A stretch of DNA of 47,309 nucleotides from an uncultured Bacteroidota bacterium (GTDB lineage: Bacteria > Bacteroidota > Bacteroidia > Bacteroidales > WCHB1-69): NCBI GenBank assembly GCA_902786595.1, contig CADADB010000019.1, forward strand, positions 1-47,309, read 5' to 3'. Position 1 is the stretch's first letter. Every line of letters starts with the position of its first letter. A model generated the notes under the pieces. That model had not been told where the DNA came from and searched no databases. It saw only the letters and a program-made list of their open reading frames with translations. The position numbers were made by a program, and so were the translations under genes. Of the stretch, positions 303 to 45,710 are shown in pieces.

Positions 303-372
303 ATTTGCGGTTTACGGTTTGCGATTTGCGAATATCGTAAACCATAAATCGAAAATCGAAAACCGCAAAACG
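303..372 (+). repeat. Imperfect 7-bp array, ten units, folding back on itself
   Basis: Ten consecutive 7-mers start one base after the stop codon of the first gene: ATTTGCG, GTTTACG, GTTTGCG, ATTTGCG, AATATCG, TAAACCA, TAAATCG, AAAATCG, AAAACCG, CAAAACG. Units 1-4 are close to the reverse complement of units 6-10, so the array can form a long imperfect stem. Its last bases run into the terminator stem at 367. The same unit family occurs at 45683-45710. Confidence 0.8.
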
Positions 373-402
373 GGTATCGGTAATTTTGCCGGTACCCGTT
401 TT
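367..402. terminator. Bidirectional rho-independent terminator
   Basis: Stem AAAACGGGTATCGG (367-380), loop TAATTTTG, stem CCGGTACCCGTTTT (389-402). All 14 positions pair in RNA (one U-G wobble), with T-rich sequence after it. It ends the T9SS cargo gene. Confidence 0.85.
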
Positions 403-410
403 AATTTTTG

Positions 411-444
411 TTGACAATAGAAAATCAAAAAAAATGTATCTTTG
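411..444 (+). promoter_or_regulatory. Bacteroidota-type promoter for the Sua5/coaD operon
   Basis: The -7 box TATCTTTG lies at 437-444 and a TTG at 411-413 can act as the -33 box (23 bp apart, slightly long). Transcription starting about 7 nt further gives a short leader before the ATG at 463. Confidence 0.7.
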
Positions 445-462
445 CAGGTTAATATTTTGGCT

Positions 463-1026
463 ATGGAAGAGGAAATTGAAAAATGTATTTCCCTCTTAAA
501 AGAAGGAAAAGTGATATTGTATCCTACTGATACAGTGTGGGGTATAGGTTGTGACGCGACCAATGAGGAAGCATTGTCGCGCATTTACCGCATCAAGCAG
601 CGCAATGAGAAAAAAAGCATGATCATCCTGTTGGACGCCATGCAAAGACTGCCGATGTATGTCAAGAAGATTCCGCTCATCGCCTGGGACTTGTTGGCAC
701 ATGTGACCCGTCCGACCACCTTCATCTATCAGACCGCCTACAACCTGCCCGACAAGCTCATCCACGAAGACGGCACCATAGCCATCCGCATTGTGCAGCA
801 CGAATTCTGTCGCCGGGTGATCCGCGGCCTGGGGCACCCGCTGATTTCCACATCCGCCAACATCGCCGGCGAGCCCACTCCCCAAACCTTTGACAAAATC
901 TCCCAAGAGGTGATTTCACAAGTGGACTATGTGGTCTCTCAGGACCATGCCACCTCCACGGACTTTAAACCTTCTCGGCTTATCAAATTCATGGACGATT
1001 ACAATTTCACGATTATCAGAGACTGA
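463..1026 (+). CDS. tsaC: L-threonylcarbamoyladenylate synthase (Sua5/YrdC/TsaC family)
   Basis: Makes threonylcarbamoyl-AMP from threonine, bicarbonate and ATP, the first step of the t6A37 modification of tRNAs that read ANN codons. The 187-residue protein is a single YrdC domain without the extra C-terminal Sua5 domain. It shows KEGKVILYPTDTVWGIGCDA near the N terminus, KQRNEKKSMIILL (the KxR ... K ... S binding residues) and HPLISTSANIAGEPTP. The ATG at 463 was chosen because the TTG at 442 lies on the -7 box. A 3-nt gap to coaD suggests one transcript. Assignment is by family motifs; confidence in family is high. Confidence 0.93.
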   Translation: MEEEIEKCISLLKEGKVILYPTDTVWGIGCDATNEEALSRIYRIKQRNEKKSMIILLDAMQRLPMYVKKIPLIAWDLLAHVTRPTTFIYQTAYNLPDKLIHEDGTIAIRIVQHEFCRRVIRGLGHPLISTSANIAGEPTPQTFDKISQEVISQVDYVVSQDHATSTDFKPSRLIKFMDDYNFTIIRD

Positions 1027-1029
1027 CAA

Positions 1030-1500
1030 ATGGAAAAGATCGCTGTTTTCGCCGGCTCATTCTGTCCTTTCACCAAAGGGCACGAAGACATCGTGTCCAA
1101 GGCCCTGCCTCTTTTCGACCAAGTCATCGTTGCCATCGGGCACAATATTGACAAAAAGGATATCTTCTCTGTGGAAGACCGCCTGCAATGGATCAAAGGT
1201 ATCTACCAAAACACCCCGTCTGTCAAAGTAGTCGCATACACGGGCCTGACTGTGGATTTCTGCCATGAGAATGGGGCCAACTACCTGATTCGCGGCATCC
1301 GCAACCCGCTCGACTTCATGAAAGAGCAAGAGCTGGCACAAGTGAACCGACAGCTGAGTCCTGATGTGGAGACGGTTTTTCTGCTTGCCTCCCCAGGTTG
1401 TGAAATCATCTCCTCGTCACTCGTGCGCGAGCTGTGGTCGCACGGTGCCGATTATACTCCATTCGTTTCCTACAAACTCCCAGAGCGACCAACTAAATGA
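1030..1500 (+). CDS. coaD: Phosphopantetheine adenylyltransferase
   Basis: Transfers AMP from ATP to 4'-phosphopantetheine to give dephospho-CoA, the penultimate step of coenzyme A synthesis in the cytoplasm. The 156-residue length is usual. Visible motifs are FAGSFCPFTKGHEDI with the TxGH nucleotide-binding motif, RGIRNPLDF, and the C-terminal ISSSLVREL. Odd point: the usual Asp in GSFDPFT is Cys here; the catalytic His is kept. It lies 3 nt after tsaC and its stop overlaps the next start by 4 bp (ATGA at 1497), so translation of the next gene is probably coupled. Confidence 0.95.
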   Translation: MEKIAVFAGSFCPFTKGHEDIVSKALPLFDQVIVAIGHNIDKKDIFSVEDRLQWIKGIYQNTPSVKVVAYTGLTVDFCHENGANYLIRGIRNPLDFMKEQELAQVNRQLSPDVETVFLLASPGCEIISSSLVRELWSHGADYTPFVSYKLPERPTK

Positions 1501-3494: not shown

Positions 3495-5213
3495 ATGGTT
3501 TTCAATTCTATCAAACGACTTCTTCTCGTTTCCGCACTCTTTTTGTGTGGTTTTGCGGCGAGCGCGCAGCACCAGTTCGGGAATAGTCGCATCAGCGGCG
3601 ATTTCGGCTTTAACGGGATGTACTATATCCCCGACTCCATCATCGGGGCGGATCCGGTAGATTCCAAAGTGCGCGGTAACGCGTTCCTCAACTTATTATA
3701 TAGCAACGGTGGTTTTTCTGCCGGAATGAGATACGAATTCTATCTGTTTCCACTCATCGATTTCGAGAAAATCGATTATAAAGGACAGGGCATCAAGTAT
3801 TTCTTCGCTGACTACACCAACAAATTCATATCGGTCACGGCGGGCAACTTCTATGAGCAGTTCGGCAACGGCTTGACACTCAGAGCCTACGAGGACCGCC
3901 AGTTAGGCATTGACAACAGTCTGCTTGGCGCGCGCATCAAACTCACCCCCTACAAGGGCATCACGCTCAAGGGCGTTTGGGGTATCGAGCGCAATAATTT
4001 CGAGTCTTACATTGACCGTGGGGACTATGTTCGCGGCGCGGATCTGGAACTCTCTTTTAACGAGATATTCCCGAAAATCCAGGAAAAAGGATTTATCGCC
4101 CGTGTGGGCGCCAACATGGTGAGCAAGTTCGAGAAAAGGGATGGGGACATCTACTTCGGTATAGGCGATGACGCCACTGCCGTTATTCCAGATTCCAAAA
4201 TCCCTCAAAACGTGGCTGCTTGGGCCGCCCGCGCCACCTTCGGCTATGAAGGATTCCGGCTTGACGGGGAGTACGCCCGCAAGATGAACGACCCCAACAT
4301 CGGCAACAATTTCATTTACAAGCCCGGTGACGCACTTTTCCTGTCCGCCACATACGCCATGAAGGGCTTTGGCATCGCCGCGTCGTTCATCCGCGCTGAC
4401 AACATGGAGTTCCGCTCGCAACGCTGGGTGAACTACAATTCCGAGTTGCTCATCAACTGCATTCCCGCTATCAATCGGCAGTACTCCTACCAGCTCATCG
4501 GCGACTACAGCTACGCCTCACAGCCCAACAGCCAAATCGGGGCGCAACTGCAAATCAACTACCAGATCCCCAAGAAGTCCAAGCTTGGCGGCAAATACGG
4601 CACCGACCTCACTTTCAACTACTCGCGCTTCCACAACACCGACCAGCAGCCGGTGCAGGAGGCCATCGAAAACGGGACGCCCATGGGCACGATGGGCTAC
4701 ACCTCCAAATTCTTCAAATTCGGCCCGACACTGCTCTACCAAGATATCGGTCTGGAAATCAGCCACCGTTTCAACAACAAGAAATGGAAATGGATTTTGG
4801 CTTACAACTACATCACCTACAATCTGGAGGTTCTGCAAGGTCACGCCGGCATGATGCGCGGTCATCTGGTGGCCTCGGATTTGTCTTACAAGATCACCCC
4901 GAAACACGCTCTCCGTCTTGAGTTGCAGCATCTTTACACGAAAGACGATGACGGCAGCAGCGTATATGGCATGTTGGAATATTCATTCAGTCCGAACTGG
5001 TTTGTTTCCGTTGGCGACGACTGGAACTACGGCAATCCACTGGCCGACCATAAGACGCACTTCTACAACATCTCGTGCGCCTATGTCTGGAATACCACGC
5101 GCATAGCCGTGAACTTCGGCAAGACCAAGGAGGGTATCCTTTGCGTCGGCGGTGTCTGCCGCGCCGTGCCCGCATCCTTCGGAGCTGGTTTGTCGGTGAC
5201 GACGTCATTCTAG
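3495..5213 (+). CDS. Outer membrane beta-barrel protein, DUF6029-like
   Basis: A 572-residue exported protein (signal peptide ending FAASAQ) made of alternating aromatic and polar strands typical of outer membrane barrels (for example FSAGMRYEFYLF, KWKWILAYNYITYNLE). It ends in the strand-like GLSVTTSF with a terminal phenylalanine, as expected for BamA-dependent insertion. The N-terminal region with TAGNFYEQFGNGLTLRAYEDR recalls the Bacteroidota DUF6029 family, whose role is unknown. It follows two TlpA-like genes, so it may be a partner or client of the periplasmic redox proteins. The stop at 5211-5213 is followed at once by a 7-bp repeat array. Confidence 0.7.
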   Translation: MVFNSIKRLLLVSALFLCGFAASAQHQFGNSRISGDFGFNGMYYIPDSIIGADPVDSKVRGNAFLNLLYSNGGFSAGMRYEFYLFPLIDFEKIDYKGQGIKYFFADYTNKFISVTAGNFYEQFGNGLTLRAYEDRQLGIDNSLLGARIKLTPYKGITLKGVWGIERNNFESYIDRGDYVRGADLELSFNEIFPKIQEKGFIARVGANMVSKFEKRDGDIYFGIGDDATAVIPDSKIPQNVAAWAARATFGYEGFRLDGEYARKMNDPNIGNNFIYKPGDALFLSATYAMKGFGIAASFIRADNMEFRSQRWVNYNSELLINCIPAINRQYSYQLIGDYSYASQPNSQIGAQLQINYQIPKKSKLGGKYGTDLTFNYSRFHNTDQQPVQEAIENGTPMGTMGYTSKFFKFGPTLLYQDIGLEISHRFNNKKWKWILAYNYITYNLEVLQGHAGMMRGHLVASDLSYKITPKHALRLELQHLYTKDDDGSSVYGMLEYSFSPNWFVSVGDDWNYGNPLADHKTHFYNISCAYVWNTTRIAVNFGKTKEGILCVGGVCRAVPASFGAGLSVTTSF

Positions 5214-5214
5214 C

Positions 5215-5238
5215 GGCTGTTGGCTGTTGGCTGTTGGC
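5215..5238 (+). repeat. 7-bp array GGCTGTT (3.4 copies)
   Basis: Three perfect GGCTGTT units plus GGC directly after the stop codon of the barrel gene. The same family recurs at 45502-45557. Confidence 0.9.
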
Positions 5239-13986: not shown

Positions 13987-13988
13987 GC

Positions 13989-14043
13989 GATGAAGGGACG
14001 ATGAATGAAAGATGAATATACGATGAATAAAAGATGAATTTGT
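13989..14043 (+). repeat. 11-bp tandem array GATGAATnAAA (5 copies)
   Basis: GATGAAGGGAC, GATGAATGAAA, GATGAATATAC, GATGAATAAAA, GATGAATTTGT. It fills the spacer between the receptor and the first DUF5689 gene. Each unit holds a TGA, and 11 bp shifts the frame, so stops occur in all frames. Confidence 0.9.
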
Positions 14044-14048
14044 ATAAT

Positions 14049-15299
14049 ATGAAAAAAATATCGATAATAGTAATTGCAATCGCAGCCATCCTTACCGGCT
14101 GTAATCTGGATCCCGATGTGGCCCCTATGCCGACATTTGTCGGGGAGGCCAACACCACCATCGCCGAGTTGCTCGCCATGCACACTATCGGTTCGGAGGA
14201 CTCCTACGACTCCATCCCCGTTGGATCCAACATCATCATCTGCGGTTACGTCACCACCTCCGATGAGTGGGGCAACAACTACAAGTACCTCAACATCGAA
14301 GATGAAACTGGCGGCATCCAGATCAAAATCGACAACAAAGCCCTGTATCACAAATACAGAGTCGGGCAGAAACTCTATGTGAAATGCGACGGTTTAGTGT
14401 TGGGCGACTACCGCAAGCTGCCGCAACTCGGTCTTTGGGCAAACGGTTCCATGCAGGCCATCCCGTCGTTCAAGACATACCTTTACCTCTTCCCCGACGG
14501 TTCCCCTATGGGGGCGCCCAATCCCATTGTGATGACCTCCATCCCGTCTGCTAACGAAATCCCAAGCACCATGTACAACCGGCGCGTTATCCTGCAGGGA
14601 GCCACGTTCGTGGAAGGCGGTTTGGCCACTTTCTCGGATCCTGGCGCTGCCACCAGCCACGACATCAAGATGGCGGACGGCACCACTGTCACGCTGAGAA
14701 CCAGCAACTACGCCACTTTCGCCAGCGAGATGCTGCCCGTAGGCACTGGCGAGATCACCGGCATTCTCACTCGATACAACAACTACGTACAGCTCGTTAT
14801 CAATAGTCCCGCTGATCTGGTGGGCTTCACCGTTCCCTTGGAGCGGCAGACCGTTTTCAGCGTCAATTACGCCAACGCCTTCAACGAAGGATGGATCCAG
14901 ACTGGCAGCGGCAACCCTTGGCAAACCCTGGTGAACAGCAGCTTCAGCGGCTTCTTCGTCAACCCGTCGGCTGACGAGGACCACTACTTGATCTCCCCGG
15001 CCATCAACCTGAGCAGCACCGAAAGTCCGGAGCTGAGCTTCACGCACCGCGCCCCGCAGGGCTTCGACCCCAACACCATGATGTGCTTCTACACCCCCAA
15101 CTACACGGGTGACGTGAACACCACCCTCTGGATCCCGCTGCCGCTCACCGCTTCCAACGGGGTCACGACTTCCGTGAACGAACTGTTCGCCCTGCCCGAA
15201 GGCGCCCAGACCTCCAACTTCCGCCTGATGTTCCATATCACGAACGCCGCTTCGTCGTGGTACCTTTCGGATATCAAGATCACGGGATTGGTGAGATAG
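14049..15299 (+). CDS. DUF5689 lipoprotein 1 (OB-like domain plus anchor-J-like domain)
   Basis: A 416-residue lipoprotein with signal peptide and lipobox ILTGC (start at 14049; the ATG at 14034 lies in a repeat array). Residues about 35-250 match the DUF5689 type: NTTIAELLAMH, then GYVTTSDEWGNNYKYLNIEDETGGIQIKI split over an OB-like barrel, and LYHKYRVGQKLYVKCDGL. The C-terminal part (about 270-416; DHYLISPAINLSS ... WYLSDIKITG) resembles choice-of-anchor J / MAM-like beta-sandwich domains. It probably sits on the outer membrane next to the receptor and binds ligand; the ligand is unknown. It is followed by a second gene of the same family. Confidence 0.82.
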   Translation: MKKISIIVIAIAAILTGCNLDPDVAPMPTFVGEANTTIAELLAMHTIGSEDSYDSIPVGSNIIICGYVTTSDEWGNNYKYLNIEDETGGIQIKIDNKALYHKYRVGQKLYVKCDGLVLGDYRKLPQLGLWANGSMQAIPSFKTYLYLFPDGSPMGAPNPIVMTSIPSANEIPSTMYNRRVILQGATFVEGGLATFSDPGAATSHDIKMADGTTVTLRTSNYATFASEMLPVGTGEITGILTRYNNYVQLVINSPADLVGFTVPLERQTVFSVNYANAFNEGWIQTGSGNPWQTLVNSSFSGFFVNPSADEDHYLISPAINLSSTESPELSFTHRAPQGFDPNTMMCFYTPNYTGDVNTTLWIPLPLTASNGVTTSVNELFALPEGAQTSNFRLMFHITNAASSWYLSDIKITGLVR

Positions 15300-15330
15300 G
15301 ACTGAGGACTGAAGACTGAGGACTGAGGAC
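15299..15330 (+). repeat. 7-bp array GGACTGA (4.6 copies)
   Basis: GGACTGA x2, AGACTGA, GGACTGA, GGAC. The first base is the last base of the stop codon of DUF5689 lipoprotein 1. Related arrays: 28012, 34661, 43387. Confidence 0.9.
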
Positions 15331-15419
15331 TTTGATATTGAAAATTATCAAGGTGACATATAATAAAGCCAATAGCTAAAAGATAATAGCTGATTATAAA
15401 CAGAGATAAAAGTAAAAAA

Positions 15420-19325: not shown

Positions 19326-20702
19326 TCACCCTGCGACCGCCGTAGCCAAATTGTGGAACACAAGGTTGTTCATCAACACGTATGAGCCCGCGCCGGCGAG
19401 ATAACCTAACAATGCATACGGGGTGATATGTTTCAGATACCAGATGAAATCGATCTTCTCCATGCCCATGACAGCCACACCTGCGGCGGAACCGATGATG
19501 AGGATGCTGCCACCCGTTCCGGCACAGTAAGCCAGGAAAATCCAGAACATGTGGTCCATCGGGAAGCTGTACATGCCCATGGCACCGGCCACCAACGGCA
19601 CATTGTCGATGATGGACGACAACACACCAATCACAGTATCAATCAAATAGTAGTTGCCGTTGAAGAGCGTGTCGAGACTGCCGGCGAGCAATGAGAGATG
19701 CCCCGCGCTCTGCAGACCGGAAACGGCTAACAAAATGCCGAGGAAGAAGAGTATGCTGGGCAAGTCGATGCGAGTGAGCACCCCTGATATCGTGAACTTG
19801 CGGTACTCTTCTTGATTCGTCTTATGCAGGATTTCGGTGGTAATCCAGAGGATGGAAAGGCCGAGCATGATGCCCATATAGGGTTTCAGATGGGTCAGAA
19901 TCTTGAAAATCGGGACGAACACCAGCGCGGCAATACCCATGAAGAAGATGAGGTTGCGCTGCCACGTGGGAACGCCTGCGCTCTTGGTATCTTTCGGGCG
20001 TTTCGAGGCATCGATTTCGCCTTTCTCCACAAAGGAGACCACGATAAGCGGGATGATCATGGAAATCAAGCTCGGAATGAAGCATTCGAGGATGACACTG
20101 CCGGTGGAGACCTTGCCCGCGATCCAGAGCATGATGGTGGTCACGTCGCCGATAGGGCTCCATGCACCGCCCGCATTGGCCGCCAGAATCACCATGCCGC
20201 CGAAGAACCAACGGTCGTGCTGTTCAGGCAACAGTTTCCGCAACAACGCCACCATCACGATAGCGGTGGTCAGGTTGTCGAGAATGGCAGAGAAAAAGAA
20301 CGTGATGAAGCTCAGAATCCAAAGTAGCTTCACCTTGTTGGTTGTCTTGATGTTGTCGGTGATGATGTTGAAACCGCCGTAGGTGTCGATGAGTTCCACC
20401 ACCGTCATGGCGCCCATCAGGTAGAAGAGGATCTCGGCGATGTCGCCCAGATGATGGATAAGCTCGTGAGTGGTGATGAAATCGACAAACGGATGCACGG
20501 AATCAGGATGCGCATCCTTGAATGCCTCGTATCCAGCCCCGAAGTCAGCAAACTCAAAGATTTCCGGCCCCGACAGGATGAAACAGGTCCAAATCAATAC
20601 GCCGATCAAAAGCGCAAATGCCGTTTTGTTGATTTTCAACGGATGTTCAAGGGCTATGCACAAGTAGCCGATGACAAAAATGACAATCATCAAGTAAAAC
20701 AT
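19326..20702 (-). CDS. nhaD: Na+/H+ antiporter, NhaD type
   Basis: A 458-residue inner membrane protein with about 12 hydrophobic segments. It exchanges sodium for protons and helps pH and salt balance. Family features are ALEHPLKINKTAFALLIG near the N terminus, HHLGDIAEILFYLMGAMTVVE, ILDNLTTAIVM, ANAGGAWSPIGDVTT and a second half with SIIDNVPLVAGAMGM and GTGGSILIIGSAAGV. These are the paired Asp-Asn/Thr helix-break motifs of the ion transporter superfamily. It is the second gene after the small barrel gene (22-bp gap) and shares its promoter. Confidence 0.93.
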   Translation of the reverse strand: MFYLMIVIFVIGYLCIALEHPLKINKTAFALLIGVLIWTCFILSGPEIFEFADFGAGYEAFKDAHPDSVHPFVDFITTHELIHHLGDIAEILFYLMGAMTVVELIDTYGGFNIITDNIKTTNKVKLLWILSFITFFFSAILDNLTTAIVMVALLRKLLPEQHDRWFFGGMVILAANAGGAWSPIGDVTTIMLWIAGKVSTGSVILECFIPSLISMIIPLIVVSFVEKGEIDASKRPKDTKSAGVPTWQRNLIFFMGIAALVFVPIFKILTHLKPYMGIMLGLSILWITTEILHKTNQEEYRKFTISGVLTRIDLPSILFFLGILLAVSGLQSAGHLSLLAGSLDTLFNGNYYLIDTVIGVLSSIIDNVPLVAGAMGMYSFPMDHMFWIFLAYCAGTGGSILIIGSAAGVAVMGMEKIDFIWYLKHITPYALLGYLAGAGSYVLMNNLVFHNLATAVAG

Positions 20703-21535: not shown

Positions 21536-21589
21536 CATCGGATATTATTTCCGTCCAAACAAGTATAAACATTTATAATTCAGAAAGAT

Positions 21590-22531
21590 ATGGCAAGAGA
21601 AGTAAAATGTCTCATCATCGGTTCCGGTCCCGCAGGTTACATGGCCGGCGTATATACGGCACGTGCCGACCTGAAACCCCTTCTCATCGAGGGCATGCAG
21701 CAGGGCGGTCAGCTGACCATCACCAACGAAGTGGAGAATTTCCCGGGATTCCCGGGTGGCGCGGGCGGTCCGGTCATCATGGACAAGCTGCGCGAGCAGG
21801 CGCTGAAACTGGGTGTGGAGATGCAGCCCAAGAGCGTCGCGAAGGTCGATTTCAGCAGCCGTCCGTTCCACTGCCAACTGGATGATGGCGAGGAGATTAT
21901 CGCCGAGACGGTCATCGTGGCCACGGGTGCGAGCGCACGTTGGCTGCATCTGCCCGGCGAGGACGAGTTCCGCGGCTTCGGGGTCTCCACCTGCGCCACC
22001 TGCGACGGCAACTTCTTCCGCAACAAGACCACCGTGGTCATCGGCGGCGGCGACACCGCGTTGGAGGACGCCCTCTACCTGTCGCAGCTCTGCACGAAAG
22101 TCTATATCGTGCACCGCCGCGACCAGTTCCGGGGCACCGCCGCGCTGCAGAAGAACGTGCTGGCGACTCCGAACATCGAGGTCGTGTGGAGCCACGTGCC
22201 CGTGGAGATCACCGGCGAGCAGAAAGGGTTCATCAAGAAGGTGACGGGTCTGAAGGTGAAGCACGCGCAGACCGGCGAGGAGCGCACCTTGGAAGTCGAT
22301 GGCGTGTTCGAGGCCATCGGCGTGGTGCCGACCACCGAACTCTTTGTGGGACAACTGGATATGAACGAACAGGGCTACATCGTCACGAAGCCCGACAGCA
22401 CGAGGACCAACGTCGAGGGCGTGTTTGCCGCCGGCGACGTGCAGGACCCCGTCTTCCGCCAGGCCGTCATCGCCGCCGGCACCGGCAGCATGGCGGGCAT
22501 CGAGGCGTCGCGGTTCCTGATGGAGAATTAG
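21590..22531 (+). CDS. trxB: Thioredoxin-disulfide reductase
   Basis: A 313-residue cytoplasmic flavoenzyme that reduces thioredoxin with NADPH. It has the N-terminal FAD motif IIGSGPAGYMAGVYTARADL and GGQLTITNEVENFPGFP. The redox-active pair is C135-A-T-C138 in TCATCDG, and the NADPH motif is VVIGGGDTALEDALYLS with HRRDQFRG. The C-terminal FAD part is GVFAAGDVQDPVFRQAVIAAGTGSMAGIEA, cited here as its two halves GVFAAGD and GTGSMAG. Length and motifs are those of low-molecular-weight TrxR. It is monocistronic by spacing and supplies electrons that could feed the TlpA-type proteins elsewhere in the window indirectly. Confidence 0.96.
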   Translation: MAREVKCLIIGSGPAGYMAGVYTARADLKPLLIEGMQQGGQLTITNEVENFPGFPGGAGGPVIMDKLREQALKLGVEMQPKSVAKVDFSSRPFHCQLDDGEEIIAETVIVATGASARWLHLPGEDEFRGFGVSTCATCDGNFFRNKTTVVIGGGDTALEDALYLSQLCTKVYIVHRRDQFRGTAALQKNVLATPNIEVVWSHVPVEITGEQKGFIKKVTGLKVKHAQTGEERTLEVDGVFEAIGVVPTTELFVGQLDMNEQGYIVTKPDSTRTNVEGVFAAGDVQDPVFRQAVIAAGTGSMAGIEASRFLMEN

Positions 22532-22556
22532 GGAACCAACGGCGTCTCGCAGTTGA

Positions 22557-22623
22557 AATGCTGAATTATGAATGCTGAATATTTGGGACTTATACGGAAC
22601 AACATTCATCATTCATCATTCAT
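22557..22623 (+). repeat. Two short 7-bp arrays (AATGCTG x3; CATTCAT x3)
   Basis: AATGCTG, AATTATG, AATGCTG at 22557-22577 and three perfect CATTCAT units at 22603-22623, after trxB. The family also occurs at 24253 and 42782. Confidence 0.85.
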
Positions 22624-22668: not shown

Positions 22669-22727
22669 GACGTAAGACGTAAGACGTTAGACGTTAGACG
22701 TTAGACGTTAGACGTTAGACGTTAGAC
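22669..22727 (+). repeat. 7-bp array GACGTTA (8.4 copies) in the sufB leader
   Basis: GACGTAA x2, GACGTTA x6, GAC. Reverse-complement relatives are at 34709-34736. Confidence 0.97.
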
Positions 22728-22763
22728 AAAAGATGTGGGATTTCTGACGCGACCACAAAACCT

Positions 22764-22791
22764 GATCACTATTCACTGATCACTGATCACA
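22764..22791 (+). repeat. 7-bp array GATCACT (4 units)
   Basis: GATCACT, ATTCACT, GATCACT, GATCACA, ending 5 bp before the sufB ATG; it fills the place where a ribosome binding site would be. Confidence 0.85.
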
Positions 22792-24252: not shown

Positions 24253-24254
<2 letters not shown>

Positions 24255-24280
24255 TGTAGAATGTAGAATGCAGAATGATG
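24253..24280 (+). repeat. 7-bp array AATGTAG/AATGATG bridging sufB stop and the next start
   Basis: AATGTAG x2, AATGCAG, AATGATG. The first unit overlaps the sufB stop (24252-24254) and the last holds the ATG at 24275 of the next gene. Confidence 0.9.
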
Positions 24281-25240: not shown

Positions 25241-25261
25241 CCTGAAACCTGAAACTTGAAA
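25241..25261 (+). repeat. 7-bp array CCTGAAA (3 units)
   Basis: CCTGAAA x2, CTTGAAA, ending 12 bp before the start of the riboflavin kinase fusion. Confidence 0.85.
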
Positions 25262-25273
25262 CTAAAAACCACC

Positions 25274-26167
25274 ATGTACATAACCGACTACATCACCGGA
25301 ACTGTCATCCAAGGACTCGGAAACGGGCACAAGTTCGGATTCCCTACTGCCAACGTGCAGCCCGACACGCCCGTCACGCTGGAGAAGGGAGCTTACGCCA
25401 CATGGGTGAAATACGACGGGAAACGCCACAAGGGGATGCTCTATGTGGGCACGCGCCCGACGCTGGACCTTCACGAACTTACCTACGAAATCCACGTCAT
25501 CGACGCCAACCCCAGACTTTACAGCAAAAAAATCGCGTTCAAGCCGGTTTACAAGATAGCGGAGGAGAAAAAATTCAGGAACCAGCGAGAGCTCGTCAAT
25601 GCCCTTGTCAAATATAAGCAATCCGCCAAAGTCCTCCTCACCCCCAGTTGGACCCAGCATCTCAACCCGAAACTTGATCACATCGATGACATCATGAAAA
25701 TCATCGGGCAGGCGAAGCGCAGGATGAAGGAACGCGGCCTCGACCAGTGGCAGGACGGCTATCCAAACGAAGAGGCCATACGCAACGACAAGCGGAAACA
25801 CCAAGGGCATTATTTCCGCAAACGTATGGAACCCGCCGCCTACGCCGCCATCGTGTTTGACAAAGACCCCTATTACGAAAAAATTGACGGGAAATGGCTC
25901 AGCGACGGCGAGCCCTACGTTGTCGTGCACCGTCTCGCCGTTGCCGACGAGTTTCTCGGTCTCGACCTCGCCAAGCACATTCTCAAGTTCGCGGAACGGA
26001 AGGCACGAGCCAAGGGCGTGCAATGGTTCCGCATCGACACCCACCACGACAACCTCCCGATGCGCAACCTCATCCGAGACTTCGGGTTCACTTTCTGCGG
26101 GGTCGTGCAGGTGCGAGACGGGAAGAGGATGGCGTATGAGAAGAGGGTGGAAACAATTAAGAATTAA
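25274..26167 (+). CDS. Riboflavin kinase domain fused to a GNAT acetyltransferase
   Basis: A 297-residue cytoplasmic protein with two domains. Residues about 1-125 match the riboflavin kinase half of RibF: GTVIQGLGNGHKFGFPTANV with the PTAN motif at 24-27, KGAYATWVKYDGK, GMLYVGTRPT, the catalytic-type Glu in TYEIHVID and KKFRNQRELVNAL. The FAD synthetase half of RibF is missing. Residues about 140-297 form a GNAT domain: MKIIGQAKRRMKERGLDQWQ, VVHRLAVADEFLGLDLAKHI and HHDNLPMRNLIRDFGFTFCG. It may make FMN and acetylate a small molecule or protein; the link between the two reactions is unknown. Its last residues and stop (IKN, TAA) lie in a 7-bp array. Confidence 0.85.
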   Translation: MYITDYITGTVIQGLGNGHKFGFPTANVQPDTPVTLEKGAYATWVKYDGKRHKGMLYVGTRPTLDLHELTYEIHVIDANPRLYSKKIAFKPVYKIAEEKKFRNQRELVNALVKYKQSAKVLLTPSWTQHLNPKLDHIDDIMKIIGQAKRRMKERGLDQWQDGYPNEEAIRNDKRKHQGHYFRKRMEPAAYAAIVFDKDPYYEKIDGKWLSDGEPYVVVHRLAVADEFLGLDLAKHILKFAERKARAKGVQWFRIDTHHDNLPMRNLIRDFGFTFCGVVQVRDGKRMAYEKRVETIKN

Positions 26168-26873: not shown

Positions 26874-27875
26874 TTAGTCGCCGAGGGTGGCTACCATCAC
26901 GGCCTTGATCGTGTGCATACGGTTTTCGGCTTCGTCGAACACGATGGAGTTCTCGGATTCGAAAACGTCCTCGGTGACTTCGATGCCGTCCAAACCGAAT
27001 TGTTTGTGCACGTCGCGGCCCACCTGGGTTTCGAGGTTGTGGTAAGCGGGCAGACAGTGCATGAACTTGCATTTCGGGTTGCCGGTGAGGGCCATCGTCT
27101 CTTTGTTGACCTGGTAAGGTTTGAGCAGTTTGATACGCTCAGCCCACACTTCGACGGGTTCGCCCATGGAGACCCAAACGTCAGTGTAGAGGAAGTCGCA
27201 GCCCTTGACGCCCTTTTTGACGTCGTCGGTGACGGTTACCTTAGCGCCGGTCTTTTTAGCGATTTCCTGGCATTGTTTTACAAGGGCTTTGTCGGGTTGC
27301 AGGGCCTTGGGAGCCACGATGCGTACATCCATGCCCATCTTCGCGCCGCCGACCATCAGGGAGTTACCCATGTTGAAGCGGGCATCACCGAGGTAAGCGT
27401 AGGTCACCTGGTTCAGGGGCTTGTCAACATGCTCGCTCATGGTGAGGAAGTCGGCGAGAACCTGTGTGGGGTGGAATTCGTTGGTCAGGCCGTTCCAGAC
27501 GGGAACACCGGCGTATTCAGCCAGTTTCTCGACGGTTGCCTGAGCGAAACCACGGTATTCGATGCCGTCGAACATGCGTCCAAGCACGCGGGCAGTGTCT
27601 TCCATAGACTCCTTCACGCCAATCTGGGAACCGGTGGGTCCGAGGTAGGTGACGTGTGCGCCTTGGTCGTAAGCGGCCACTTCAAAAGCGCAACGGGTAC
27701 GAGTGGAGGTCTTCTCGAAAATCAGGGCGATGTTCTTGCCTTTCAAACGAGGTTGTTCAGTGCCGGCGTATTTCGCGCGTTTGAGGTCGCGGGCCAGGTC
27801 AAGCATGAATTGGATTTCCGTCGGAGTGAAGTCCAACAGTTTCAGGAAGCTTCTGTTTCTTAAATTGAATGCCAT
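26874..27875 (-). CDS. argF: Ornithine carbamoyltransferase
   Basis: A 333-residue cytoplasmic enzyme that makes citrulline from ornithine and carbamoyl phosphate. Canonical motifs are [16 protein letters not shown] (carbamoyl phosphate), [22 protein letters not shown] (ornithine loop) and FMHCLPAYH. These are the standard OTCase signatures rather than those expected for the N-succinylornithine enzyme known from Bacteroides fragilis. The start [10 protein letters not shown] at 27875 was chosen over an upstream ATG that overlaps the -7 box. It is monocistronic, convergent with the LRR gene across the 29-bp hairpin. It could be biosynthetic or part of arginine/citrulline breakdown. Confidence 0.93.
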
Positions 27876-27915
27876 AAACTTTTTGTATTTAATAATGATG
27901 AAAATTTTCCGGCGG

Positions 27916-27923
27916 CAAAGATA
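27916..27923 (-). promoter_or_regulatory. -7 box TATCTTTG of argF
   Basis: CAAAGATA on the plus strand, followed on the minus strand by GCCGCC, 41 bp before the argF start. The 7-bp array 27934-27961 lies where the -33 box would be. Confidence 0.75.
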
Positions 27924-27933
27924 CATTTTTTTT

Positions 27934-27961
27934 GGTTTAAGGTTTAAGGTTTAATGGTTAA
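27934..27961 (+). repeat. 7-bp array GGTTTAA (3 units plus TGGTTAA)
   Basis: Three perfect units then TGGTTAA, directly upstream of the argF -7 box. Confidence 0.9.
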
Positions 27962-28011
27962 GAAATTATAGAAAAAGAGAGATAAATCGTAAGACTTTGT
28001 AATCATCCCGA

Positions 28012-28039
28012 AAGTCTCAAGTCTTAAGTCTCAAGTCTC
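28012..28039 (+). repeat. 7-bp array AAGTCTC (4 units)
   Basis: AAGTCTC, AAGTCTT, AAGTCTC, AAGTCTC, ending 13 bp before the -7 box of the HAD gene. Reverse complement of the GAGACTT family at 34661. Confidence 0.92.
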
Positions 28040-29511: not shown

Positions 29512-32340
29512 TCACACCACTTTCTCCCGTAGCCACTCCGCCGTGTAACTTCCCTCGCACTTCACTAACTCTTCCGGTGTGCCCTCAAACACGATGTTGC
29601 CGCCGGCGTCGCCGCCCTCGGGACCAAGGTCGATGATCCAGTCGGCGCACTTGATGAGTTCGGTGTTGTGCTCGATGACCAAAACCGTGTTGCCATGCTC
29701 GATCAGCCGGTTGAAGGCGTCGTAGAGTTTGTGGATGTCGTGGAAATGAAGACCTGTGGTCGGTTCATCGAAGATGAAGAGCTTGCGCTGCTTATCGTCG
29801 TCCTGCGCCAGGAAGTTGGCCAATTTCACGCGCTGCGCCTCACCGCCCGACAAGGTCGAGGACGGCTGTCCCAGCACCAAGTACTCTAACCCCACGTCTT
29901 TTAGCGGCTGCAAGCGGCGTAAAATGTTCGCCGTGATGTCATTGGGTGTCAGACTGTTGAAGAAGTCCAACGCCTCGTTCACCGTCATATTTAGGATGTC
30001 ATTGATGTCTTTGCCAGAAACTTTGATATCCAAGGCGTCGTCGCGGAAGCGCTTGCCCTGACACGACGGACAGACCATTTCCACATCGGCCATGAACTGC
30101 ATGTTGATATGGATGATGCCCTCGCCCTCACATTCCTCGCAGCGACCGCCCGCCACGTTGAAGGAGAAGAAGCCCGCCTTGTAGTTGCGCTGCTTGGACA
30201 AGGGCTGAGCCGCGTAAAGCTCACGAATATAGTCGAAAATCTTAAGATATGTGGCGGGGTTGGAGCGAGAGGAACGCCCGATGGCATCCTGATCGACCAT
30301 CACCACGCCGTTGACCTTGGTCATGTCGCCCGACACGCCGCCGCAACGGCCAGGCCTCGGCACATTGGCATCGCCCAAGAGCCGTGCCACAGACGGATAG
30401 ACAACGTCCGTCACCAGCGAACTCTTGCCCGATCCACTCACGCCCGTCACCACCGTGAAACACTCCAACGGAATCTTCACGCTGATGTTCTTGAGGTTAT
30501 GCTCGCGGGCATTCTGCACCTCGATATAGTTGCGCCACTTCCGGCGGTATTTCGGCAACGGAATGCGCATCACGTCTTTACCTTCGGCGCCCGGCACCAT
30601 GCCCCGCAAATAGCTGGCTGTCAGATTCTTTTTCTGCGACAATAACTTGTCGAACGTGCCGGAGAAGACCACCTCGCCACCAAACTGCCCGGCCATGGGA
30701 CCGATATCGACAATGTAGTCAGCGGCTTTGATGATGGCTTCGTCGTGCTCGACCACAACCACCGTGTTTCCTATGTCGCGCAACCGTTTCAGCACGTTGA
30801 TAAGGTTCTGGGTGTCACGTGGATGCAATCCTATACTCGGCTCATCAAGGATATAGAGGGACCCCACGAGACTACTGCCCAGCGAGGTCGCCAGGTTAAT
30901 ACGCTGAGACTCACCGCCCGACAATGTGGAACAGTTACGATCCAAAGTCAGGTAGCCGAGTCCCACCTCGTCCAACAGTCCGATGCGGGTGGTCAGCTCG
31001 CGCATCAGAATCTTGGCGATTTCTTTTTCATTATCGTTTTGATATTCAAAGTTTTCGAAGAATTTCTTCAGTTCCGAAACCGGCATGTTCTGCAATTCGG
31101 CGATGGACTTGCCGTTGACCTTCACGTACTGCGCATCCTTGCGCAAGCGCGTGCCGTGGCATTCGGGACAGAGTTCGCGCCCGCGATAGCGCGCCTGCAT
31201 CACCCGGAACTGGATCTTGTAAGTGTTGGCGGCCACGAAATCGAAAAACTGTGTGATACCATGCACATCGTGCTTCACATCGCCGTACCAAAGCAGGTTG
31301 TACTCCTCTTCGGTGAGGTCATCGATGGCGCGATACACGGGGAAATCGAGTTTGGAGGCATAACGGATGAAATGGCGTTTCCACTCGCTCATGACCTCGC
31401 CGTGCCAGCAGGCCACCGCATCCTCCGCCACCGACAACGAGCGGTCGGGGAAGACCAAGTCGGGATTCACGCCCTCCACCATTCCCGTGCCGGAACAGGT
31501 CTTGCACGCCCCGTAAGGGTTGTTGAAGCTGAACATGTTCACCGTCAGCTCCTCAAACGTCATGCCGTCGGCCTCGAAAAAGTTGCTGAAGGACTTCAAC
31601 ACGCTCTTTTCCCCTTCGCGGAGCACCGCACACACGCCCTTTCCTTCCGAAAAAGCAACATTCACGGCATCGGTCACGCGAGTCTGCTGCGTCGCCAAAT
31701 TGTCGGACTTGAAACGGTCCACCATCACATACAGTTTCTTCGGATCGGGTTCCTTTTCGAACTTGATAACATCGTCAATCTCAAAAAGTTGCGAATTGTA
31801 CACCATTCTGTTGAAACCCTGTTGCCGGAGAATCAGCAGCTGGTCGCCGACGGAACGCCCTTCAGGGATCACCATGGGGGCAAGCACATAAACGCGCTCA
31901 CCTTCAGGAGTTTGCATGATGAAACGCAACACGTCTTTCACATCGTGGCGTTTCACCTCCTGTCCGCTCACCGGCGAAAAGGTGTGGCCGATGCGGGCGA
32001 AGAGCAGCTTCAGGTACTCGTAAATCTCCGTCACGGTGCCCACGGTCGAGCGCGGGTTCCTCGACAGGATCTGCTGCTCAATGGCGATGGCCGGCGGGAT
32101 GCCGGTAATGGATTTCACATCGGGCTTCTTCATGCGTCCCATGAACTGCCGGGCGTACGAGCTGAGACTCTCCACATAGCGCCGCTGCCCCTCCGCGTAG
32201 AGCGTGTCGAAGGCCAGCGAAGATTTTCCGGAGCCGGACAACCCTGTGATTACCACGAACTTATTGCGCGGAATATCCAAATCGATATTCTTCAGGTTGT
32301 TGACCTTCGCGCCACGTATGGAAATTTTTTTCTCTTTCAT
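29512..32340 (-). CDS. uvrA: Excinuclease ABC subunit A
   Basis: A 942-residue ATPase that finds bulky DNA lesions for nucleotide excision repair with UvrB and UvrC. It has Walker [21 protein letters not shown] and the UvrB-binding and insertion region (about 115-290). The zinc motifs are CKTCSGTG ... CPECHGTR and CEECEGEG ... CPSCQGKR, the second Walker A is [18 protein letters not shown], and the signatures are [11 protein letters not shown] and [11 protein letters not shown]. Start at 32340 ([10 protein letters not shown]); the frame is open 48 codons further up, but that stretch covers the promoter. Full-length family member. A second UvrA-like gene lies at 39049. Confidence 0.97.
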
Positions 32341-32352
32341 AATTTGAGGGCG

Positions 32353-32360
32353 CGAAAATA
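32353..32360 (-). promoter_or_regulatory. Variant -7 box TATTTTCG of uvrA
   Basis: CGAAAATA on the plus strand, continued as TATTTTCGC on the minus strand, 12 bp before the start. Confidence 0.5.
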
Positions 32361-32577
32361 CGATTTTTTTTGTGACTAGTGCACGGTAATCAAGGAACAA
32401 AACGACATCTCCTTCATCCAACACTTTCCCGTTCACGAATAAAAAACAAAATTCATGAACTTTCTTCGATTTTCCGCGAAACAACCATTTTATTTTAACT
32501 ATTAATTATCAAATAATTTTCATTAATATTTGATAACAGATTGATTAACAGCCGAATATAAAAATTTTCAAAACCTC

Positions 32578-34634: not shown

Positions 34635-34660
34635 TCGGTTATATTTTGAATATGGGACAT

Positions 34661-34681
34661 AAGACTTGAGACTTAAGACTT
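34661..34681 (+). repeat. 7-bp array AAGACTT (3 units)
   Basis: AAGACTT, GAGACTT, AAGACTT between pepP and the P-loop gene. Confidence 0.88.
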
Positions 34682-34708
34682 TGGGGGGATTCGTTTCGTA
34701 TTACCCCA

Positions 34709-34736
34709 ACGTCCTACGTCTAACGTCTAACGTCTT
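34709..34736 (+). repeat. 7-bp array ACGTCTA (4 units) encoding the end of pepP
   Basis: ACGTCCT, ACGTCTA x2, ACGTCTT. On the minus strand the right end reads AGACGTTAG, which gives the last two residues (RR) and the stop of pepP. Same family as the sufB leader array. Confidence 0.92.
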
Positions 34737-36056: not shown

Positions 36057-36087
36057 AGTGATTTGTGATTAGTGATTTGTGATTAGT
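36057..36087 (+). repeat. 7-bp array AGTGATT/TGTGATT (4.4 units)
   Basis: AGTGATT, TGTGATT, AGTGATT, TGTGATT, AGT between the FISUMP stop and the pepP promoter. Same family as 42684-42718. Confidence 0.93.
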
Positions 36088-42648: not shown

Positions 42649-42676
42649 GGTTATTGGTTATGGGTTATGGGTTATT
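42649..42676 (+). repeat. 7-bp array GGTTATG (4 units)
   Basis: GGTTATT, GGTTATG x2, GGTTATT. First of three unrelated 7-bp arrays in this spacer. Confidence 0.93.
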
Positions 42677-42683
42677 GAAGCTT

Positions 42684-42718
42684 GTGATTAGTGATTAGTG
42701 AATTGTGATTAGTGAATT
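42684..42718 (+). repeat. 7-bp array GTGATTA/GTGAATT (5 units)
   Basis: GTGATTA x2, GTGAATT, GTGATTA, GTGAATT. Same family as 36057-36087. Confidence 0.93.
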
Positions 42719-42753
42719 GTGTATCAAGTTTTTTGTATCTAACACCCACTTAT

Positions 42754-42835
<82 letters not shown>

Positions 42836-42837
<2 letters not shown>

Positions 42838-43324
42838 ATTTAGGGAGGAAGCCGGCGTGAAAGGTGTAGGGCAGCAGGGTGGCGACGCTTTGGAAGTGGT
42901 AGATCGGGCCCTCTTGGCCGGCCAGGATGACCTCCATGGGATGACCGAACTTCTGTTCGTATTCGAAGAGGACCTGACGGCAGCTGCCGCACGGGGAAAC
43001 GGGTTCTTTGAGCGGTTCATCCGGGTTGATGGCGGTGATGACAATCTTGTTGAACGGCACTTCGGGATACATCGCCGAAGCAGAAAAGGCCGCGACACGT
43101 TCCGCGCACAAGCCGCAGGGATAGACTGCATTCTCCTGGTTCGCTCCTGTAACAATCTTGCCGTTGTTCATCAAGATGGCCGCTCCAACCTGAAAATGGG
43201 AATACTTCGCATACGCGCGGGCGGCAGCTTCCTCGGCTTGCCGCAACAACTCTCGCAAATCCTCAGGCAACTCTTCACGATTGTCGTAAACCCGCATTTC
43301 CGTTTCTAATGTTATTTTCCTCAT
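42836..43324 (-). CDS. cdd: Cytidine deaminase
   Basis: A 162-residue zinc enzyme that deaminates cytidine and deoxycytidine for pyrimidine salvage. Motifs are YSHFQVGAAILM, the zinc site with the catalytic Glu in CGLCAERVA, and PCGSCRQVL with the other two zinc cysteines. It is a homotetrameric-type family member with a short N-terminal extension; an internal Met at residue 10 is an alternative start. A -7 box lies 24 bp upstream. The stop codon overlaps a 12-unit 7-bp array. Confidence 0.95.
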
Positions 43325-43440: not shown

Positions 43441-43458
43441 GGTTATCGAAAAAAAAAG

Positions 43459-43466: not shown

Positions 43467-43500
43467 CATTCTTTAACATTTTGAAGCGGACTTCACCCTT

Positions 43501-45498
43501 ATGGCATACAACAAAAGAACAGAAACAATTAATATACTGAAAGTTACAATTCTTGTTTTAGGTATTTTCACCATCACGTGGAATATGGCGTTTGCCCAGC
43601 GGCACGACAAGGGGGACACCACCCTACTGCTCTCCCCGTTCGATTTCGGGCTGGCGGAGGCGGAAACCGACAGTGCCAGATACGAAGTTCTTTACGCCAC
43701 GCACACCAAAGCCGTTGAAATGGGCGCTGATGTCTCCTATCAAGGCGTCGGAACCTTGGTCATAGAGGTGACAGAAAGTTCACGCCCCATTCCACTTACA
43801 CGCCACAATGATTTCGCAGGACTACATCTGATTGTGAAAAACAACTACAAACCACAGTATCTTTTTTCTATGGCAGACACAGTGTGGCAGAGCATCGAAT
43901 TGTCTCCTGCGGCTGTCGATTCCGGGAATTTCTCCTCCAACCCGTATTTGGCGGAAGGCATCTGTATGTTACTGTTGGAAGACCTGAAACCATGGGTGGA
44001 CAACCGCGAAGGCCATAGCTACGGAGCCATGAGAAAGGACATCCTTCTTCTTCATCACGGCAAGGCGCAGAACAGACCCATTTCCACATACAATTCAGAC
44101 TCAACCATTCTGAAAGCCAGCGCACATTTCACTGACGATGTCCTGAAAACCATCACTGACTTGACCATCACCCGCGACACCTCCTCCACAGCCAAGACAT
44201 ACTGCTTCTCCATCCACGGCATCAACAATCTGGAGATCAGCAAATTGAGGATAAACACGCCAGACACCAAGAACTTGTATGCCGATGCCGCCATCAACCT
44301 TGAGAACAGCACAAACATCGTATTCGAAGACGTCACCATCAACGGAACTTACTCCCGCACGAACAAATATGGATACGGAATCCAAATGAACAACGTGTGG
44401 AACAGCCGTTTTCTCCGACTCACCGCAGACGCCAACTGGGGAATCTTCGGCACAAACAATCTCAGCAACACGACTTTAAAGGATTGCAACATTAACCGTT
44501 TTGACATTCACTGCTATGGTCGCGACGTTTTTGTGTACAACTGCCAATTCAACAATCTGTACAACCAGTTCTCCTCCGTTTTCGGAACAGTCCTGTTCGA
44601 GAAATGCCGTTTCACCGAATTCATCCCGGTCCTGTTCGAGCCATCTTACAATGCCTACACCCCATTCAATCTCACCCTCAAAGACTGCATTTACGATGCC
44701 TCCCCTTCTCGCAATTATCTGATTTCCACTGGACAACTGGACAACAAAATCAACTCCCGGCCCGAACTCAAAGAAAAGTGCTGGCCCAACATCTCCATCC
44801 AGAATCTCATCGTGAATATCCCCGAAAACGTATCGAAGTTTATTTTGTTCAACACCAAAAAAGCAACTTCGGGGCTCCCCGTAAACTACATTTCCGACAT
44901 CAAAATTGACGGTCTGAATTTCCATTACATGGACACAACCCGTCTGGCCGACCTTGTCATATCAAACACTCCTGTAAACAGTGTCAAATCCATCAACTAC
45001 GACATTCAAAAGGTCTATTTGATACCTTCTGAGGAGAGGATGAAGGTGCAATCCACCACAAAATCTTCCTATCCAGGAAGCATTGCATTCAAGCTGCGCC
45101 GCGACAAAAACGATGTCGTGAACATGCGGCAGTCGCGCATCAACTTTAACGTCAACGAAAACAGCCAGTACAACATCAAGTACACCAACTGCAGCGTCGG
45201 CATGATCCGCTATAACACCACGAACAACGGAACTATACGCAACTACGACCGATGCAACCTGTATCTGAACAACGGCGACGATGCAAGGTACTACATCGAC
45301 AATCATGCCACCTATTATAAATGCACATTCATCCCTTGTAATGAGAAAATGTACATCAGTTTCTACGGCGTCAGCAACGATGTGGTTATCAAAAACTGCA
45401 AGACAACCCGCAAAGGCCGCCTTTTCTACCAAGGTCACAACGACAACATCGAGCTGAAGGGCTATGTGGTGAAGGGGAATGAGAAGTACTGGCGATAG
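43501..45498 (+). CDS. Exported right-handed beta-helix repeat protein
   Basis: A 665-residue exported protein with a long signal sequence (MAYNKRTETINILKVTILVL, then GIFTITWNMAFAQ). The central part (about 200-400) is made of short strand repeats with N-x-x-F/L-x-D/N-C turns (NLEISKLRINTP, NIVFEDVTINGTYSR, NTTLKDCNINRF, DVFVYNCQFNNL, TVLFEKCRFTEF), as in right-handed beta-helix or pectate-lyase-like folds. A second series follows near the C terminus (YYKCTFIPC, VVIKNCKTTRK). No catalytic site or sorting domain was recognised. It may bind or cut polysaccharide outside the cell or in the periplasm. Monocistronic with its own promoter. Confidence 0.78.
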   Translation: MAYNKRTETINILKVTILVLGIFTITWNMAFAQRHDKGDTTLLLSPFDFGLAEAETDSARYEVLYATHTKAVEMGADVSYQGVGTLVIEVTESSRPIPLTRHNDFAGLHLIVKNNYKPQYLFSMADTVWQSIELSPAAVDSGNFSSNPYLAEGICMLLLEDLKPWVDNREGHSYGAMRKDILLLHHGKAQNRPISTYNSDSTILKASAHFTDDVLKTITDLTITRDTSSTAKTYCFSIHGINNLEISKLRINTPDTKNLYADAAINLENSTNIVFEDVTINGTYSRTNKYGYGIQMNNVWNSRFLRLTADANWGIFGTNNLSNTTLKDCNINRFDIHCYGRDVFVYNCQFNNLYNQFSSVFGTVLFEKCRFTEFIPVLFEPSYNAYTPFNLTLKDCIYDASPSRNYLISTGQLDNKINSRPELKEKCWPNISIQNLIVNIPENVSKFILFNTKKATSGLPVNYISDIKIDGLNFHYMDTTRLADLVISNTPVNSVKSINYDIQKVYLIPSEERMKVQSTTKSSYPGSIAFKLRRDKNDVVNMRQSRINFNVNENSQYNIKYTNCSVGMIRYNTTNNGTIRNYDRCNLYLNNGDDARYYIDNHATYYKCTFIPCNEKMYISFYGVSNDVVIKNCKTTRKGRLFYQGHNDNIELKGYVVKGNEKYWR

Positions 45499-45501
45499 GA
45501 C

Positions 45502-45557
45502 GGCTATTGGCTATTGGCTGTTGGCTATTGGCTATTGGCTGTTGGCTTTTAGCTATT
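45502..45557 (+). repeat. 7-bp array GGCTATT/GGCTGTT (8 units)
   Basis: GGCTATT x2, GGCTGTT, GGCTATT x2, GGCTGTT, GGCTTTT, AGCTATT after the beta-helix stop. A 3-unit higher-order pattern (two ATT then one GTT) is repeated. Same family as 5215-5238. Confidence 0.96.
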
Positions 45558-45588
45558 GCACTGGCGAGAAGCCATTACACGACACCTT

Positions 45589-45660
45589 AGATATAGACTT
45601 AGATATAGACATAGACATAGACTTAGACTTAGACTTAAACTTAAACTTAAACTTAAACTT
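45589..45660 (+). repeat. Hexamer array AGACTT/AAACTT (12 units)
   Basis: AGATAT, AGACTT, AGATAT, AGACAT x2, AGACTT x3, AAACTT x4. Same family as 5257-5298, where it also follows a GGCTGTT array. Confidence 0.96.
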
Positions 45661-45682
45661 AAGCTATGCCGATTTCTTTATT

Positions 45683-45710
45683 GTAAATCGTAAATCGCAA
45701 ATCATAAACC
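45683..45710 (+). repeat. 7-bp array GTAAATC (4 units)
   Basis: GTAAATC x2, GCAAATC, ATAAACC; same family as 303-372. With the two arrays before it and the promoter at 45740 it accounts for the whole 308-bp spacer 45499-45806; no small gene was seen there. Confidence 0.88.

Follow-up and report, generated by a model that had tools for sequence, protein, structure and literature searches.

Heptanucleotide arrays of eleven unit families with an outward orientation at gene edges in a rumen Bacteroidales genome

The window analysed here is the 47,309-nucleotide contig CADADB010000019.1 of assembly GCA_902786595.1, from an uncultured Bacteroidota bacterium of the order Bacteroidales (WCHB1-69). 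It is contig C19 of the draft genome G000 of a rumen bacterium (2.840 Mb in 40 contigs, 93% complete); the named assemblies closest to it are Bacteroidales, many of ruminant and some of horse origin. The genes of the window, among them a DUF6029 gene, a carbamoyltransferase gene, and a cytidine deaminase-like gene, are separated by spacers that carry short tandem arrays of 7-bp units, or heptads (Table 1). Tandem Repeats Finder reports 24 period-7 rows spanning positions 111 to 45708, mainly between open reading frames (ORFs). At a score of at least 36 and with overlaps removed, 19 of the 23 intergenic arrays have a period of 7, and three further period-7 arrays lie within ORFs that are possibly spurious. 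Exact shift-7 runs of at least 12 matches number 13, compared to 0.0 in dinucleotide simulations. The other exact runs have periods of 6 (three), 8 (one), 12 (one), 14, 21, and 28, plus one of 22. The presence of period-7 arrays in the spacers, reported in a preliminary description of the window, is thereby confirmed.

The survey covered 1.247 of the 2.840 Mb of G000 and 0.720 Mb of the genome of a sister species, G010, both picked by contig number. Arrays were called by Tandem Repeats Finder, excluding spacers shorter than 15 bp and period-1 rows. Overlapping rows were resolved to the smallest period, which biases the calls towards 7 over 14 and 21. Gene edges were taken from greedy longest-ORF calling, and gene starts are therefore only approximate. 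The period is the constant across loci, as the preliminary description had proposed: period 7 accounts for 273 of the 385 intergenic arrays in G000 and for 35 of the 216 arrays within ORFs, and 210 of the 694 spacers with a length of 20 bp or more contain a period-7 array. Tandem 7-bp units thus occur beyond chance and mostly between genes, as in other heptanucleotide simple sequence repeats. The arrays consist of 2 to 13 heptads, with a mode of four (four units in 107, three in 67, and five in 42 of 277 arrays). The density of intergenic period-7 arrays is 24.8 per 100 kb in a 400-kb sample of G000, 9.4 and 12.0 in close named relatives, and 3.2 and 1.5 in more remote genomes. The excess is bound to the lineage and drops as genomes become more remote from the clade. 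The arrays are unlikely to stem from faulty assembly, because they recur at matching places in orthologous spacers of other genomes, and because one array is nearly letter-identical in two assemblies from separate projects (L068 and L070).

Contrary to what was first thought, the units are not entirely different from locus to locus. With rotation and strand ignored, the 273 arrays use 63 distinct units, compared to about 223 expected; 200 random samplings of spacer DNA gave 204 to 238. All but nine of the arrays (264/273) are within one mismatch of one of eleven degenerate families: GGTTATN, GGTTNA, NGCTNTT, AGTTAGN, GTTTCAN, GTGANNN, GACTNNN, GACGTNN, GAATNNN, GATAATN, and NCGNTTT. Variants within arrays occur at fixed positions of the unit; for example, GATAATT occurs 92 and GATAATG 60 times in G000 and G010 together. 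The last position of GGTTATN in the same genomes is G in 70, T in 41, A in 23, and C in 2 cases.

Arrays point away from genes, a rule that the preliminary description missed. The direction of an array was defined by the strand with more G than C, and the 4 of 277 arrays without skew were left out of the orientation counts. In G000, the G-rich strand runs outward, 5' to 3', from the nearest gene edge in 211 arrays and inward in 62 (p = 4e-20), irrespective of the direction in which the gene is transcribed; the ratio is 116:32 at the stop edges of genes and similar, 95:30, at their start edges. Consecutive arrays sharing a spacer are convergent in 42 cases, divergent in 1, and run in the same direction in 16. 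The pattern is replicated in G010 (94:35 outward to inward; 19 convergent, 1 divergent, and 7 in the same direction) and holds for ORFs of at least 600 nt (133:35; convergent to divergent 24:1). When direction is assigned by family, the arrays of G000 and G010 together are outward by 289:91, with GGTTATN (71:8) and GATAATN (19:14) as the extremes. Outward arrays also predominate in smaller samples from G020 (11:3), G006 (9:4), and five other genomes of the genus pooled (16:4; 2 convergent, 1 divergent), as well as in named relatives of the 78-92% (21:10), 60-77% (14:3), and below 50% (6:3) groups. Genomes G200 and G423 of distant families yielded four period-7 arrays in 195 kb, too few to judge geometry. 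Skewed spacer composition was rejected as the cause of the orientation, since the skew of spacer DNA outside arrays is small (-0.02 to 0.09). Period-8 arrays obey the outward rule (27:6), whereas period-6 arrays do not (5 outward, 11 inward). One period-8 dispersed family, CGATGANN, has 74 matches of CGATGANNCGATGA in the G000 sample and 29 in G010.

Arrays are anchored closely at the ends of genes. In G000 and G010, 147 outward arrays lie at stop edges; 104 of them begin no more than 5 bp from the last base of the stop codon, and the stop codon itself is frequently supplied by the array. Arrays at start edges lie at wider distances. Spacers between co-directional genes that are 20 and 21 bp long are also filled by arrays. 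One explanation of this arrangement is that the arrays are functional boundary elements, bound by a heptad-reading protein that guards gene edges against incoming transcription, or, in a variant, loading sites of a protein on the C-rich strand, as Rho might use, with selection keeping the cores and freeing the degenerate positions. The identical outward rule at starts and stops and the predominantly outward orientation of GGTTATN arrays agree with such a role. However, eleven unrelated families would need many readers, and a transcription block in the shortest co-directional spacers could be costly.

The arrays of the GGTTATN family belong to a dispersed element. They have a nearly constant head, AATGG, and a nearly constant tail, GGTTATTGAAG, and of 46 copies that have this tail and three or more heptads, counted in the samples of G000 and G010, 37 contain exactly four heptads. 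The element pattern GGTTATNGGTTATNGGTTATTGAAG has 62 copies in the G000 genome, whereas its reversed control has none. The pattern is present in 19 of the 40 genomes of the genus (63 copies in G006, 53 in G020, and 47 in G010). A stricter pattern, with the fixed head and exactly three heptads, occurs in G000 alone among 149 genomes of the order (3 of the genus). The GGTTAT element is also contained in two contigs of the viral collection IMG/VR, L248 and L249, which may be phage or misplaced host DNA. Three units of the NGCTNTT family (RGCTDTT) match 29 of 296 genomes of the class; overlapping matches number 219 in G000 and no more than 23 in any other genome. The reversed pattern, used as a control, still matches 12 genomes, 1 to 4 times each, and sharing of this family outside the genus is therefore only suggestive.

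Arrays turn over fast between sister species. Among the 153 orthologous spacers of G000 and G010, 121 align well. These contain 77 gaps of 4 bp or longer, and the length of 29 of the gaps is divisible by 7 (p = 3e-7 for an expected share of one seventh). Of 250 orthologous edges, 33 have arrays of the same family in both genomes, 14 have swapped families, 26 bear an array in just one of the two, and 177 have none, so that 40 of the 73 array-bearing edges differ. Certain swaps switch exactly at the stop codon. Near position 6332 of contig C8, one species has GACTTTG units behind a gene end that in the other is followed by AATGTAG units. The convergent pair in the window spacer 34635-34726 differs in each of three lineages: the pair that spans 34656-34735 in the window is AGTTAGN on both sides in G010 and G006, and GATAATG and GAATGTA in G020. 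Such turnover, with 14 of the differing edges changed by family swap, speaks against a boundary function. In two spacers, a palindromic repeat occupies the array slot in the sister species. Two dispersed spacer palindromes of the G000 sample, GTAGAGACG..CGTCTCTAC (46 matches) and TAGGGGCGAA..TTCGCCCCTA (13), replace heptad arrays in this way, with examples at C2 218991-219063 and C8 4164-4277 (G010 allele); the former palindrome contains GTAG, the tag of known repetitive extragenic palindromes (REPs).

The composition of the arrays bears on their origin. Adjacent units are identical in 249 of 863 cases (0.289) and non-adjacent units in 357 of 1323 (0.270) in G000. GAATNNN is the exception, with 0.37 for adjacent and 0.20 for distant units. 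The 28 arrays at the 14 swapped edges are already heterogeneous: 5 of 28 are homogeneous, compared to 4 of 66 shared arrays, and the within-array mismatch is 0.132 in swapped and 0.115 in shared arrays. Most arrays look heterogeneous at birth, with units traded or changed afterwards. The preliminary description suggested slippage with a fixed step, and replication slippage in 7-nt steps was proposed by Mrazek et al. (as cited in the available parts of PMC4679880 and PMC4692102). It is consistent with the gaps of 7n, with the alike neighbours in GAATNNN, and with the dominance of period 7 among exact two-copy duplications (200 compared to 7 simulated, many of them possibly array remnants). The heterogeneity within arrays and the near-independence of neighbours argue against slippage as the usual origin, as do the restricted vocabulary and the orientation rule. 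We consider it quite unlikely as the source of most families and retain it for the later gain and loss of whole units.

Plain copying of blocks between loci was also rejected, as there is no general excess of shared unit strings. Strings of four units are shared by 50 pairs of loci (50.2 expected) and strings of three by 326 (295.6 expected), with GATAATN and NGCTNTT below expectation for three. Substitutions affect 40 of 362 degenerate positions and 22 of 692 core positions. Neither value falls within the span of 40 neutral simulations, and 12 of the 40 changes at degenerate positions are G/T. We infer exchange between arrays from this difference. The rate of change in the cores is half that of other spacer DNA (3.2% and 6.4%) and lower than in any of the 40 simulations, which would also be expected of boundary elements under selection. 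On balance, a boundary function is possible but somewhat unlikely. Together, the unit heterogeneity, string, and substitution data leave unit-by-unit synthesis on degenerate templates, copying with very frequent switches of template, or selection on cores.

We tentatively favour the reading that arrays are laid down by outward DNA synthesis, from a DNA end or by template switching. Each array would be made at once by synthesis that lengthens the 3' strand away from the gene, and the outward polarity of the G-rich strand fits such 3'-end extension. The heptads could be synthesized de novo, with a small number of degenerate templates, or copied from other arrays while switching template after nearly every unit. 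Overwriting would be halted at the last sense codon or at the promoter by selection on genes, so that repeated rounds would leave arrays flush with gene edges. Later, the arrays lose or gain whole units in 7-bp steps.

Several observations weigh against this proposal. The unit families were defined post hoc, after inspection of the arrays. The 62 inward arrays among the 273 oriented ones, the barely outward GATAATN family, and the neighbour effect in GAATNNN are exceptions to the pattern. Strings of three units are shared above expectation by GGTTATN, GAATNNN, and GACTNNN, and strings of four by GGTTATN. One or both alleles of a swapped edge must be new, and two or three of the swaps are between neighbouring families. 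Searches for the machinery are also unfavourable. Ku was found in 0 of 40 genomes of the genus, and classical end joining is therefore an unlikely source. The reverse transcriptase domain RVT_1 is present in 9 of the 40, with divergent reverse transcriptases possibly escaping detection; it is absent from the array-rich, near-complete G020, and from G181, G182, G013, and G012. The facing pairs of arrays belong to one family in 17 of 41 cases, compared to 4.4 expected. The two sides are thus not independent, and hairpins may matter.

The excess of same-family pairs would be explained if the arrays were hairpin or terminator elements, or G-quadruplexes (G4), and it is in keeping with this that palindromic repeats take array slots in sister species and that a looser two-tetrad G4 motif is found in 66 of 273 arrays. 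However, 24 of the 41 facing pairs do not belong to one family. Arrays are about equally frequent in divergent (31/133) and convergent (32/119) spacers, which does not suit terminators. The three-tetrad motif is present in only 5 of 273 arrays, and G4 was rejected as a general cause. We regard this group of explanations as very unlikely.

Telomerase-like reverse transcription, in which an enzyme of the DRT10 type would copy a short RNA template, has several features in its favour. The variants are position-specific and nearly independent from one unit to the next, a property also of Paramecium and Plasmodium telomeres, the G strand points outward, and one family has a nearly fixed 3' end, TTGAAG. 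The system shown for DRT10 produces 9-nt repeats (PMC12632851, available in part). The patchy distribution of RVT_1 within the genus led us to reject such an origin. The only RVT_1 match in G000, a 467-residue protein (L247, near C3 118162), adjoins a 348-residue putative transcription regulator and looks retron-like by inspection. A telomerase-like source appears the least probable of the alternatives. RAYT transposases seem doubtful as array makers, because Y1_Tnp is present in 36 of the 40 genomes irrespective of the GGTTAT element, and because the inspected one of the three G000 copies (C1:270036-270509) is flanked by other repeats, namely many hairpin copies of CTACCGAGCTTT..GGGAC. That locus looks like an ordinary REP/RAYT locus.

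Table 1 Tandem arrays in the window. Strand is that of the array; a dot marks arrays with no strand given. Differences in G010 refer to the sister species.
Array	Position	Strand	Context
TCAATGT, period 7	111..143	.	Within open-ended ORF at contig edge
[AG]CG[AG]TTT	302..331	+	Starts at edge of ORF ending at 301
GGCTGTT	5215..5238	+	1 bp past stop of DUF6029 gene (3495-5213)
GGACTGA	15298..15331	+	Begins within stop codon of 14034-15299; G010 spacer 14 bp (2 units) shorter
GAATTAA	19293..19320	-	Outward from stop of minus-strand gene 19326-20702
GAATGAT	22603..22623	-	Overlaps start-side edge of 21545-22612; inward exception; G010 7 bp shorter
GACGTTA/GACGTAA	22669..22727	+	8.4 units; G010 14 bp shorter
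GTGATCA/GTGAATA	22762..22790	-	Convergent with 22669..22727, different family
GAATGTA	24253..24277	+	Fills whole 20-bp spacer from stop codon to next start; G010 7 bp longer
GTTTCAG/GTTTCAA	25236..25262	-	Start edge of 25256-26167; G010 spacer 7 bp shorter
GAATTAA	26155..26182	+	Overlaps end of 25256-26167; different unit in G010
GGTTTAA	27934..27962	+	7 bp from carbamoyltransferase gene (26874-27926)
GACTTGA	28012..28039	-	Convergent with 27934..27962, different family
GACTTGA/GACTTAA	34656..34681	+	Left of pair
GACGTTA	34708..34735	-	Right of pair with 34656..34681
GTGATTA/GTGATTT	36058..36084	+	
Dispersed element copy (GGTTATN)n-GGTTATTGAAGC	42649..42681	+	
GTGATTA	42684..42715	+	
GAATGTA, then GAATGAT/GAATGCT	42753..42837	-	Outward from stop of cytidine deaminase-like gene 42836-43324
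GGCTATT/GGCTGTT	45502..45558	+	Directly past stop of 43501-45498
CTTAGA, period 6	45586..45661	.	Period-6 class, outside outward rule
GTAAATC, period 7	45683..45708	.	Within 100-aa ORF, possibly spurious

Sequence beside the array at 36058..36084 resembles the Bacteroides promoter motif. The window also contains a GATGAA-rich array with an 11/22-bp period at 13988-14039, and encodes a UvrA-like protein at 29512-32484. The latter has 7 to 15 matches in each of eight relatives, many of which are weak and probably represent other ABC ATPases.

The preliminary interpretation is partly supported overall. Eleven families in one genome separate the cause of the arrays from any one sequence, and G4 and slippage therefore no longer serve as general explanations. 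The orientation rule, alike at starts and stops, points to the polarity of DNA ends or to a directional gene boundary.

The arrays resemble several known repeats. The short tandemly repeated repetitive sequences of cyanobacteria are likewise heptanucleotide tandem arrays. REP and REPIN palindromes, which occur with RAYT transposases, are dispersed, extragenic, and 20-40 bp long, as are the arrays described here, whereas the heptad families look non-palindromic by inspection. A minisatellite within a miniature inverted-repeat transposable element of Porphyromonas is reportedly on record. Heptanucleotide long simple sequence repeats are over-represented in many bacteria (Mrazek et al. 2007, as cited in PMC4679880 and PMC4692102). 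They share the period of 7, and the citing passages mention no families, orientation, or turnover. Although the excess was reported in 2007, the available parts of the two citing papers offer no tested mechanism for it. Heptamer arrays have been published for the Bacteroidota F. litoralis, Paludibacter propionicigenes, Gramella forsetii, A. sublithincola, and E. anophelis (PMC4679880, in the part available), contrary to the initial impression that none were described for Bacteroidales. A search of titles and abstract openings, with subscription journals mostly uncovered, returned no report of Bacteroidales heptads with such an orientation beyond PMC4692102 and PMC4679880.

The closest geometry is that of the GGGANTN / GGGGA(C/T)T heptads of Xanthomonas and Nostoc (Rehm et al. 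2015, PMC4692102). According to the available part of that paper, the Xanthomonas G-rich family, studied as G4, has a mode of four units, forms convergent pairs, and lies near the 5' ORF whatever its orientation. The arrays of G000 share the four-unit mode, the convergent pairs, and a G-rich strand that points away from the nearest ORF. They differ in their eleven families and the scarcity of G-tracts able to form G4, whereas each of those genomes has one G4-forming unit kind, with few pairs in Nostoc. TAACTGA repeats are known from Beggiatoaceae, Cyanobacteria, and some Bacteroidota (MacGregor 2015, PMC4679880, likewise in part). There, 147 of 170 sets are directed towards the start codon, the largest single class ends 1 nt before the start, and one Flexibacter set is reversed, directly after the stop. 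By our reinterpretation, this is the same outward rule, realized with one unit, which is present in 0 of 273 arrays here. The heptad excess is thus already known, and a similar geometry has been published for single families, in the parts of the two papers available; the main finding here is the architecture. We speculate, while considering it unlikely, that bacteria of several phyla have in common a hitherto unrecognised process in which DNA next to genes is capped or rebuilt with fresh degenerate heptads, G-rich strand outward, through an unrecognised enzyme and with an outcome like that of telomerase at chromosome ends. The repeats of Xanthomonas, Nostoc, Beggiatoaceae, and rumen Bacteroidales would then be its footprints.

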